From Sphingorhabdus rigui (GTDB lineage: Bacteria; Pseudomonadota; Alphaproteobacteria; Sphingomonadales; Sphingomonadaceae), in NCBI RefSeq assembly GCF_014196595.1, contig NZ_JACIEA010000001.1:808845-872844 (forward strand): 64,000 nucleotides of DNA, in the 5' to 3' direction. Positions 38,258-40,868 of this stretch are shown here, piece by piece. The notes beneath the pieces were generated by a model. That model made no database searches and was not told where the DNA came from. It worked only from the letters and a program-made list of their open reading frames with translations. Each line of letters starts with the position of its first letter. The first letter of the stretch is position 1. Position numbers and translations under genes: made by a program.

Positions 38258-38398
38258 ATGCCCAAGATGGTCAAAAAATCAGACCTGCCGTCGAAAATAT
38301 GCGCGGCATGTGAAAAGCCGTTTGCGTGGCGCAAAAAGTGGGCGAAAGATTGGGAAAATGTGCGCTTCTGTTCGGATCGCTGCAGGCGGGCGCGTTAA
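38258..38398 (+). CDS. DUF2256 small zinc-finger-like protein
   Basis: A short gene encoding 46 residues, [11 protein letters not shown] followed by [19 protein letters not shown] and [10 protein letters not shown]. Two Cys pairs flanking the WRKKW block match DUF2256 proteins, thought to bind zinc. The first ATG is used; an ATG three codons in (MVKK) is possible. It lies alone between the divergent TonB receptor and the convergent bufC gene. Confidence 0.85.
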
Positions 38399-38429: not shown

Positions 38430-39179
38430 TCAGGTTGCTGAGACGCTGACGGCTTCATCATCCGCCCACCGCGCCAAAAGCAAGCCAGCGCGTGCGATGC
38501 CGGCTTCCTCTCCATGTTTTTGCTCAAGCTGTGCGCAAATGTCCACAAAGCGCAACGCGGGGTTCATTTGCATGAAAATTTCCGCTTCGTCGGCATCAAC
38601 TATCCTAAAACACGGGGCCCAATCGCTTCTCCAAACGAGGATGTCGATGGGAGCCTTCGCAGTTTTGGGCACTGGCGAGATTTCCGCGCGCGACAGTGCG
38701 GACCAAATCTCAGCTGCGTTGCTGGTGTGACGCAGCACCTGGCCCCCCGACGCATGTGTGAGGGAAACCTGTTCCCAATCGAGATGCGTGAACATGTCAC
38801 GGGATAAGGGCAGTCGGTCGGCTGCAGTCTGGGCGTCGCTCAGCGCCAGCTCCAATTCGGCAAGTTCGTGTGCGACCAGATCATCGGGAAACAGCGTGCC
38901 GACTTCAGCGGCAAAGGACACAGGGTAGGCGTCAAGCGTCCACGCGACTGGTGGCTGCGCCATGATATGGCAACGGGCGCCTGCGTGAAACCGGTCACTG
39001 CCAAGCCATGTTCGCGTGTGGGGAAATGCGCGGTCAAGGCAATGCAGCAATTGCGTCCGGTAATTGTTGAGATAGACGTTAAGCCCTGGCTGCGCGGCAT
39101 CGCCGAAGTCTACGACGTAATCCGGGTTTCCGGTTTCGAGCCATCCCCTCATGGCCTTCTGTATGCTGGCGAGGTTCAA
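38430..39179 (-). CDS. bufC: DUF2063-type partner protein of the MNIO enzyme (BufC-like)
   Basis: This 249-residue protein has an N-terminal DUF2063 domain: LNVYLNNYRTQLLHCLDRAF, PHTRTWLGSDRF, IMAQPPVAWTLDAYPVSF and a helix LVAHELAELELALSDA. In bufferin-type and related loci such proteins bind the precursor and present it to the MNIO enzyme. The start is TTG 39179, giving a four-base overlap (TTGA) with the bufB stop, and is preferred to ATG 39152, which would cut the helix. Last gene of the operon. Confidence 0.85.
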   Translation of the reverse strand: MNLASIQKAMRGWLETGNPDYVVDFGDAAQPGLNVYLNNYRTQLLHCLDRAFPHTRTWLGSDRFHAGARCHIMAQPPVAWTLDAYPVSFAAEVGTLFPDDLVAHELAELELALSDAQTAADRLPLSRDMFTHLDWEQVSLTHASGGQVLRHTSNAAEIWSALSRAEISPVPKTAKAPIDILVWRSDWAPCFRIVDADEAEIFMQMNPALRFVDICAQLEQKHGEEAGIARAGLLLARWADDEAVSVSAT

Positions 39180-40000
39180 TGTCCCAATCCACGCTTTGCG
39201 GCAGCGTCTGCGCACGCACGTGCCATTGCAAGTTCGTCGAGCAATTCGCCAATCGGGGGGATATTGTTGTCGCGTTCAATCATAACCGCAACGGGCCCGA
39301 CGAGAGTCATTGCAGTCTCAAAAAGATCCCAGACGGCGTCGCAAACGGGTTGATCGTGCGTGTCAACCAGCACGTCCTGACCTTGGCTGTGGCCAGCGAT
39401 GTGGATCTGCCGCACATTAGCCATAGGAAAGTGCGCTATATAATCCGCAGGATCGAAACCCAGATTGAGGGCGCTTACATAGACGTTGTTCACATCCAGC
39501 AGCAGGCCGCAGCCAGTTTGCGCGCACAGTTTGGAGAGGAAGTCCCATTCGGGCATCTCTGACTCGGCAAAACCAAGATAGGCGGACGGATTTTCGAGCA
39601 GTATCTGTCGCCCAAGTATTTCCTGCGCCGCCTGAACATGGTTAGAAACGATGTCCAGCACCTCCTGCGTATAGGGCAGCGGGAGAAGATCGTGGGAGCT
39701 GAAGCCAGGAACCCGGGTCCAACATAAATGGTCGGACACGAACAGCGGATCGATGACATCGACCAATGCCCGAAGCCTCTGCACATAGTCCCGATCGAGA
39801 CCTGATGCGGAGCCTACCGACATCGAAACACCGTGCAAGGCAACCGGGCATTTTTCCCGGACAGCCAATAAATCAGCGAGCGGACGACCACCGGGAAACA
39901 TGAAATTTTCCGAGATTACCTCGGCAAAATCGAGTTGCACATTTCCCGACAGGACGTCTTCATAATGTGGCTTGCGCAGGCCCAGCCCGAACAACGTCAT
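39176..40000 (-). CDS. bufB: DUF692 / MNIO multinuclear iron oxidase (BufB-like)
   Basis: This 274-residue TIM-barrel enzyme belongs to the MbnB/TglH/ChrH family, which use two or three irons to oxidise cysteines of RiPP precursors. All expected ligand motifs are visible: ALHGVSMSVGS (His56), VSDHLCWT (Asp90, His91), LENPSAY (Glu136), LLLDVNNVYVSA (Asp169), IHIAGH (His200, His204), DTHDQ (Asp213, His215) and IERDNNIP (Glu242). It begins 36 bases after the second precursor gene and is coupled to bufC. The pairing with DUF2063 and DUF2282-like precursors points to a bufferin-type product. Confidence 0.92.
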   Translation of the reverse strand: MTLFGLGLRKPHYEDVLSGNVQLDFAEVISENFMFPGGRPLADLLAVREKCPVALHGVSMSVGSASGLDRDYVQRLRALVDVIDPLFVSDHLCWTRVPGFSSHDLLPLPYTQEVLDIVSNHVQAAQEILGRQILLENPSAYLGFAESEMPEWDFLSKLCAQTGCGLLLDVNNVYVSALNLGFDPADYIAHFPMANVRQIHIAGHSQGQDVLVDTHDQPVCDAVWDLFETAMTLVGPVAVMIERDNNIPPIGELLDELAMARACADAAAKRGLGH

Positions 40001-40036
40001 TGGCTGTTGCTCATGACTGGTTCAGCAAGCGAATTA

Positions 40037-40303
40037 CTACTTGGCAGACTTGGCAGGAGGCGTGGTTTTACCGCGTTCTTTTTCGCATGTGCCCTTGGCG
40101 ACATATTTCCATTCGGTTGCACTTTTATCAGCCTTTGCCTGACCAGCGCAGCTATGAACGCCGTTAGCGTCAGCACAATCATTCTGGCCTGCCTTGGCAA
40201 TACCATAGCATTTTTCTTTGCCATCGGCTGCTACAGCAGGCGCGGTGCTAAGGGCGACCGATACGGCGAGAGCCGCAATAGCGAATTTACGTTCCGTTTT
40301 CAT
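40037..40303 (-). CDS. bufA: DUF2282-like RiPP precursor, proximal copy (bufferin-type)
   Basis: This 88-residue protein has a signal peptide (residues 1-25, [13 protein letters not shown]) and a mature part with four cysteines at 32, 43, 52 and 73 in [25 protein letters not shown] and [11 protein letters not shown]. This is the DUF2282 pattern of bufferin precursors. In characterised bufferins, MNIO enzymes convert some cysteines to copper-binding groups and the peptide goes to the periplasm. ATG 40303 is chosen; a GTG two codons upstream is possible. It precedes bufB by 36 bases. Confidence 0.88.
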
Positions 40304-40383
40304 GATCACTGTGTTCTCATCTCATTAGATTTTGGGCGACATGATGCCAGCTAGTCCAAATCATTTTACAAGTATATTTAAAA
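40304..40383 (-). promoter_or_regulatory. Upstream block shared by both precursor genes (proximal copy)
   Basis: The 80 bases before the proximal precursor align with those before the distal one, including TACTTGTAAAAT, GGA, CATCA, AAATC and the translation-start context TGATCATGAAA. No clear sigma-70 or known copper-operator motif is visible. It shows that the duplication covered the 5' region, and may contain a promoter or mRNA leader. Confidence 0.45.
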
Positions 40384-40515
40384 GCGGAGAGCGACTTTCG
40401 TGCGCGCCCCACATGGATGTCCGCGCATCAATGTACTTTGCGATATATGCACCCAGTGAATGGCCAGTCCAAACAACGCCATTGGCCGCCGCGACAACTT
40501 GGTTCGGCAAGATAC

Positions 40516-40785
40516 CTACTTCTTACTAGGGGGCATGGTTTTGCCGCCGACTTTCTCGCATGTGCCTTTTGCGACGTATTTCCAGTCGTACGGATTATTA
40601 TCTGCTTTTGCTTGGCCAGCGCAGCTGTGGCTTCCGTCCGCACTAGCACAGTCATTGGCACCGGCTTTGGCAACACCAAAGCATTTTTCTTTGCTTGCTT
40701 TGTCACTGGCAGCCGCAGCAGGCACGGTGCTGAGTGCGACTGATATGGCAAGCGCCGCGATCGAATATCTACGTTCCGATTTCAT
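40516..40785 (-). CDS. bufA: DUF2282-like RiPP precursor, distal copy (bufferin-type)
   Basis: This 89-residue paralogue of the proximal precursor has a signal peptide (residues 1-26) and four cysteines at 35, 46, 55 and 76, with spacing 11, 9 and 21 identical to the other copy. The motifs are [26 protein letters not shown] and [14 protein letters not shown]. The C-terminal tail differs (PPSKK versus PPAKSAK), as does the loop after [10 protein letters not shown] (NNPYD versus KSATE). ATG 40785 is chosen; the ATG at 40791, two codons upstream, is equally possible and is nearer a GGGA ribosome-binding site. Confidence 0.88.
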
Positions 40786-40868
40786 GATCATTTTTTCCCA
40801 TCTTACTGGATTTGTGGAAGTGATGCGGTCAAATAATCCAATAAATTTTACAAGTACATTCAAAAACT
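40786..40868 (-). promoter_or_regulatory. Upstream block shared by both precursor genes (distal copy)
   Basis: Homologous to the block at 40304-40383, with the same ordered landmarks: TACTTGTAAAAT, GGA, CATCA, AAATC and ATGATCATGAAA. It is probably the leader or promoter region of the whole operon. The rest of the region up to the tRNA-Thr gene (40869-41010) holds no gene I can see. Confidence 0.45.

Follow-up and report, generated by a model that had tools for sequence, protein, structure and literature searches.

We describe a four-gene operon in a 64,000-nucleotide stretch of the Sphingorhabdus rigui genome (hereafter, the window), which we read with fair confidence as a bufferin-type operon in which an MNIO/DUF2063 pair descended from the Buf2 lineage acts on two tandem Buf1 precursors. 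Its likely products are two small envelope peptides that bind copper. Precursor 1 comes first, followed by precursor 2, the MNIO and the DUF2063 protein; these genes and the associated sequence elements lie as follows:

40834 to 40854, minus strand: upstream element of P1, CTTGTAAAATTTATTGGATTA (motif pattern, genome search)
40516 to 40785, minus strand: precursor 1 (P1, P0001), DUF2282/Buf1, 89 aa, four Cys (PF10048, 83.9 bits)
40464 to 40511, minus strand: stub of the MNIO leader and 5′ end, between P1 and P2 (alignment; repeat family D3)
40352 to 40372, minus strand: upstream element of P2, CTTGTAAAATGATTTGGACTA (motif pattern, genome search)
40037 to 40303, minus strand: precursor 2 (P2, P0002), DUF2282/Buf1, 88 aa, four Cys (PF10048, 81.8 bits)
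39176 to 40000, minus strand: MNIO maturase (P0003), BufB, on the Buf2 side (PF05114, MNIO_BufB, profile difference, trees)
38430 to 39179, minus strand: DUF2063 partner (P0004), BufC/PME1, on the Buf2 side (PF09836, profile difference)

A first-pass annotation of this DNA had proposed a bufferin-type locus, and the curated models (PF10048, PF05114, MNIO_BufB and PF09836) support that assignment. Both peptides exceed the PF10048 (DUF2282) cut-off of 22.4 bits, and their four cysteines are indeed spaced identically, by 11, 9 and 21 residues; by eye, each starts with a putative signal peptide made up of a basic start, a hydrophobic stretch and an AxA-like end ahead of the first Cys. P0003 reaches 350 bits against PF05114 (cut-off 25) and 368 bits against the NCBIfam equivalog MNIO_BufB (NF050167, cut-off 310), and the solved structures 3bww, 8hci and several MbnB entries are related to it by sequence. 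The claim that it holds all expected iron ligands is likewise borne out: it has H56, H91, E136, D169, N172, H200, H204, D213, H215, E242 and D244, which we take to be the iron ligands or catalytic base of MNIO enzymes. Ten of these eleven positions are invariant in 121 MNIO relatives (52 Buf1-linked, 63 Buf2-linked, 6 EGKCG-type), the remaining one, H204, being His in 112 of the 121. At 50.6 bits against a cut-off of 27.2, P0004 is a PF09836 (DUF2063) match; it begins with TTG, and the TTGA at 39179-39176 that joins this codon to the stop of the MNIO gene is the overlap already annotated. Of the features of the bufferin/captophorin class, whose precursors are of DUF2282, Buf2 or EGKCG type, the locus thereby has a DUF2282 precursor, a BufB-type MNIO and a downstream DUF2063 (PME1) partner.

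What might the products be for? Both bufferin classes, the gene order bufABC, tandem precursor genes and a role in copper handling are known from the sections of PMC12452194 covered here, and PMC12668002, likewise considered in part, deals with how thiooxazoles form and with selectivity. From the sequence, we infer that thiooxazoles may form and copper be bound at the window locus by the following route. BufC would bind the precursor, BufB would oxidise the two central cysteines to 5-thiooxazoles in the cytoplasm, Sec would export the modified peptide, the outer cysteine pair would form a disulphide, and the product would then buffer copper in the periplasm. The earlier suggestion that two precursors might yield two different products fares less well, as chemically different products are less likely given that the residues around the central cysteines are nearly identical between P1 and P2.

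A role or metal other than copper (iron, zinc, gold, oxidative stress) is unlikely for the product, albeit far from negligible. Pointing that way are a TonB receptor downstream of the operon in the window and in one of two related genomes (G027; the other is G025, and the window genome is G000), a further such receptor near a bufferin locus in Asticcacaulis, the 'gig' bufferin operons named for gold induction in the covered part of PMC12452194, and a missing sigma-F/NrsF link; against it, the bufferin-class products described in the covered parts of PMC12668002 and PMC12452194 are linked to copper. The regulatory link is judged from a promoter motif and the NrsF gene alone and does not define the bufferin class. 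The Caulobacter sigma-F promoter is given as GTAACC-N16-CGAA in the section of PMC3511200 consulted, and a loose pattern for it occurs before 37 of the 46 GTSC-type Buf1 genes of the family (1.3 expected from shuffles) and 32 of its 39 Buf2 genes (1.0 expected). It precedes none of the five window-type precursors in the window genome, G025 and G027; since it is also found before none of the eight Buf1 genes of other subtypes in the family, its absence is not special to the hybrid. NrsF (PF06532) has no match in G000, G025 or G027, and a single one in G014, of the same genus, directly before the Buf2 gene. A different element, CTTGTAAAAT-N4-TGGA, stands before four of the five precursor copies of the three genomes. 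In the window genome it occurs exactly only before P1 and P2, with two weaker sites elsewhere (one and two mismatches), and it matches no site that we could name. Between the operon and the TonB receptor, on the opposite strand, lies a small DUF2256 gene (window 38258-38398, plus strand), also found in G027.

The precursor pair arose by tandem duplication, which left behind a stub of the MNIO start. P1 and P2 form an imperfect tandem repeat with a period of about 480 bp (spacing 473-482) and two blocks of 76 and 78% identity, which in local alignment extends from about 80 bases 5′ of the start codons to about 20 bases inside the MNIO gene and so takes in the promoter region as well as the stub. 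Aligned with the true MNIO start, the stub scores 35, the best of 1000 shuffles reaching 25. By pairwise estimates, P1 and P2 differ by a dS of 1.03 with a dN/dS of 0.18, and the two precursor copies of G025 by a dS of 0.91, both dS values being rough (about 60 sites); P2 is closest to the P2 of G025 (dS 0.42). For the MNIO gene, dS is 0.66 between the window and G025 and 0.75 between the window and G027. Since the precursor copies are thus further apart than the orthologous MNIOs, the duplication seems to predate the divergence of the three genomes, and independent duplications in the window genome and G025 (1.03 and 0.91 between copies, as against 0.66 between MNIOs) are less likely. The junctions nevertheless differ between these two genomes, the two precursors of G025 lying about 110 bases apart without a stub; G027 has a single precursor at the locus, which by eye looks like a recombinant of both copies.

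Could P2 be the sole real substrate, with P1 either in decay or adding only dosage? Of the two, P1 has diverged further (dS 0.96-1.42 from the other four copies), and G027 has one precursor at this locus. Yet P1 shows a dN/dS of only 0.16-0.22 against those same four copies and its upstream element is intact, so we think this reading rather unlikely; judged by pairwise dN/dS, both precursors seem to be kept as proteins. The operon is present in three Sphingorhabdus-group genomes (window genome, G025, G027) with common neighbours: upstream genes are shared by all three (for G027, within the fetched stretch, only the gene adjoining the operon) and the downstream TonB receptor by the window and G027. 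These common neighbours make inheritance in place seem the case, and a recent horizontal transfer of the whole locus finds no support. Seven genomes of the same genus carry a tandem DUF2282 pair (L034, L035, L036, L037, L038, L039, L040) with no MNIO match in the fetched stretch, and in six of them (G036, G013, G023, G011, G012 and G039) the single MNIO lies on another contig or far away. By eye, the L034 pair sits between apparent ammonium transporter and tRNA-guanine transglycosylase genes.

The ancestry of the enzyme and its partner was assessed with profiles and trees. P0003 scores 84 bits higher with a Buf2-linked than with a Buf1-linked MNIO profile; under five-fold cross-validation, this difference lay between +68 and +136 for 63/63 Buf2-linked MNIOs and at or below -18.9 for 51/52 Buf1-linked ones. 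For P0004 the corresponding BufC difference is +149 to +150 bits, with 41/41 Buf2-linked partners positive and 38/39 Buf1-linked ones negative (the partner profiles cover the 83 of 95 candidate proteins that passed a profile seeded with P0004, 12 being dropped). One and the same locus, that of G539, is the single exception in both tests. P0003 lies among the bufferin-linked MNIOs, not outside the precursor-modifying MNIO clades, the placement that would have refuted the first-pass annotation. The labels split almost cleanly in a tree of 128 MNIOs (de-duplicated, without G025 and G027), where only the window and G539, among Buf1-linked rows, fall within the Buf2-linked part. In a 76-row tree that includes G025 and G027 (a seeded sample of the 128-row set, with nine long-branch rows dropped and the nearest relatives forced in), the window MNIO groups with theirs (100/100) and then with Buf2-linked rows (98/82, 99/87). 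Loci L084-L111 served as outgroup, with six rows in the larger tree and five in the smaller.

An ordinary Buf1 operon, whose enzyme looks Buf2-like merely because Sphingomonad MNIOs evolve together, would explain the locus more simply, and Buf1- and Buf2-linked MNIOs are indeed close relatives, suggested to be isofunctional in the sections of PMC12452194 covered. In AU tests, whose groups were named after the trees had been seen, placing the trio (the MNIOs of the window, G025 and G027) outside the Buf2-linked MNIOs was rejected both in full (p 0.016) and in a 23-row, mostly Sphingomonad subset (p 0.005), but joining it to the Buf1-linked MNIOs was not (p 0.103). However, the profile differences of both P0003 and P0004 point to Buf2, and the Buf1-linked MNIOs in other genomes of the same genus are merely 35-45% identical to P0003; the 52 MNIOs behind DUF2282 precursors, trio aside, reach at most 49%. 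The closest MNIOs outside the trio, of the same family and up to 67% identical, stand behind six-Cys Buf2 precursors, as do those on one Paraburkholderia and one Cupriavidus plasmid (60-62%). An ordinary Buf1 operon is therefore improbable in our estimation, and by sequence comparison the enzyme and partner appear as members of a lineage otherwise serving six-Cys Buf2 precursors.

One residue of the enzyme had seemed informative. In a published model (PMC12668002, in the part covered), the residue that follows the ERD motif is adjacent to the substrate Lys. It is Asp in 56 of the 63 Buf2-linked MNIOs (Gly in 4, Ala in 3) and, within the trio, Asp in G025 and G027 and Asn in the window enzyme. 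Asn is common at this site elsewhere (10/52 Buf1-linked and 6/6 EGKCG-type rows), and we dropped it as a mark of the window enzyme. A repeated change at the site in Buf2-less genomes, suggested by a loose pattern (Ile in three), was rejected with a stricter one, by which six loci with a divergent Buf1 have Glu in three cases and Asp in three.

The precursors, by their sequence, are to be classed as four-Cys Buf1 peptides of a subtype unseen in the other Sphingomonadaceae sampled, under labels that rest on cysteine patterns of our own definition. Both share an H-S-C-A-G pattern, which is absent from the 54 further distinct Buf1 peptides of the family in the set (46 of G-T-S-C type, 8 others). 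The closest precursors elsewhere, in other families, do have this subtype, and the precursors alone may have come from a foreign source. A precursor tree separates Buf1 from Buf2 with a support of 100 and puts the window peptides on the Buf1 side, although on 60 columns and with forks around the window peptides below 95. That they are Buf2 peptides which lost two cysteines and converged on the Buf1 pattern is very improbable: P1 and P2 match the BufA2 model weakly (29.5 and 26 bits, cut-off 60), the G025 and G027 precursors match the Buf2 profile weakly (23 and 21.8 bits), and H-x-C-x-G-Q is by eye common to P1/P2 and Buf2, but the DUF2282 scores of 82-84 bits, the lack of any Buf2 profile match in the window genome at E 0.001 and the clean split of the tree all speak against it. 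Of the Buf1 features, the locus has four conserved cysteines in a DUF2282 precursor and lacks an MNIO and partner of Buf1-linked lineage (by HMM and the two rejecting AU tests, with p 0.103 to be set beside them); of the Buf2 features, it has the MNIO and partner lineage (HMM and trees, under the same AU caveat) and lacks, in the window genome at E 0.001, a six-Cys precursor with Cys-Lys motifs.

How rare is such a combination? Among 178 distinct MNIOs in the sampled loci, classified by profiles that had some of these rows as their input and leaving out the outgroup loci, all 52 on the Buf1 side have a Buf1 gene upstream. On the Buf2 side, 108 of 126 have a Buf2 gene within 900 bases upstream, six have only a divergent Buf1 and eight neither precursor; the remaining four, with only a same-strand Buf1, are the window, G025, G027 and G539, a distant alphaproteobacterium. 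The loci were drawn from plasmids, two named contigs and searches of 119, 397, 398 and 398 genomes (the last two the same sampling), and as matches were fetched in part, the association counts are not frequencies in nature. In G814, a DUF2282 gene and the sole MNIO, of the G539 branch, lie on separate contigs (L252/L253). A distinct Sphingomonadaceae MNIO branch (L131:3872-4609, minus strand; L247, L248, L249) stands behind a Cys-rich protein of 231-245 aa that ends in ACGxSGxSGAGGC and has no obvious signal peptide by eye; this is possibly a further type of MNIO substrate.

Genome complements bear on how the mismatch came about. The window genome has one MNIO and two DUF2282 genes. A takeover of Buf1 substrates by a Buf2-lineage enzyme, as we infer it, is plausible since, of 15 other Sphingomonadaceae genomes picked for a Buf1 near a Buf2-side MNIO, 13 have one MNIO and two have two; any modification of Buf1 in the former must be the work of that Buf2-side enzyme. 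In g70, another genus of the family, six genomes picked for having no Buf2 upstream of the MNIO show no Buf2 match, keep the Buf2-side MNIO and have two Buf1 (DUF2282) genes each, and the seventh genome checked has Buf2 and one DUF2282 gene. We lean towards an exchange of substrate class in this Sphingorhabdus lineage, wherein a Buf2-lineage pair, having given up the six-Cys substrate along with sigma-F control, came to act solely on two Buf1 peptides whose subtype is foreign to its family; with the six of seven g70 genomes in mind, such an exchange would have happened independently several times. Were this so, PME1-dependent MNIO pairs would not be bound to a single precursor class, and the same pair could act on either. 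Which residues set selectivity is asked by Antoine et al. (PMC12668002), in whose covered sections the tie between MNIO and precursor is an open question. With precursors and enzyme from different classes in one locus, selectivity can be tested on just four small genes, with Buf2-retaining relatives as matched controls.

Compared with known systems, the window operon resembles the Buf1 operon of Caulobacter (CC3254-CC3257, in the covered part of PMC3511200) in its four-Cys DUF2282 precursor and the order precursor-MNIO-DUF2063, yet differs in that its MNIO and DUF2063 protein lie off the Buf1-linked side, in its two precursors, and in having neither DoxX among the neighbours examined nor a sigma-F-like motif. 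With the Buf2 operon on a plasmid of Novosphingobium sp. EMRT-2 it shares gene order, an MNIO 65% and a partner 36% identical over the aligned parts; unlike that operon, it has two four-Cys DUF2282 precursors in place of one six-Cys precursor, and no NrsF in the genome. The hybrid in G539, a genome of the same taxonomic class (L251: NrsF, Buf1 precursor, Buf2-side MNIO and partner in a row), likewise joins an H-S-C-A-G DUF2282 precursor to a Buf2-side MNIO (+47) and partner (+10.7), but with a single precursor, NrsF directly upstream and an MNIO that is 46% identical to that of the window and sits on a separate branch. Tandem precursor genes in an MNIO cluster are shared with clusters reported, in one sentence, by Antoine et al. 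2025 (PMC12452194), whose covered sections describe no mismatch between precursor and enzyme class such as that of the window; nor did we find a report of Buf1 precursors with Buf2-lineage enzymes in the parts of the bufferin literature searched (PMC12452194, PMC12668002). The window operon is a hybrid form of a known class, and it is the mismatch of precursor and enzyme, not the tandem precursors, that makes it unusual.
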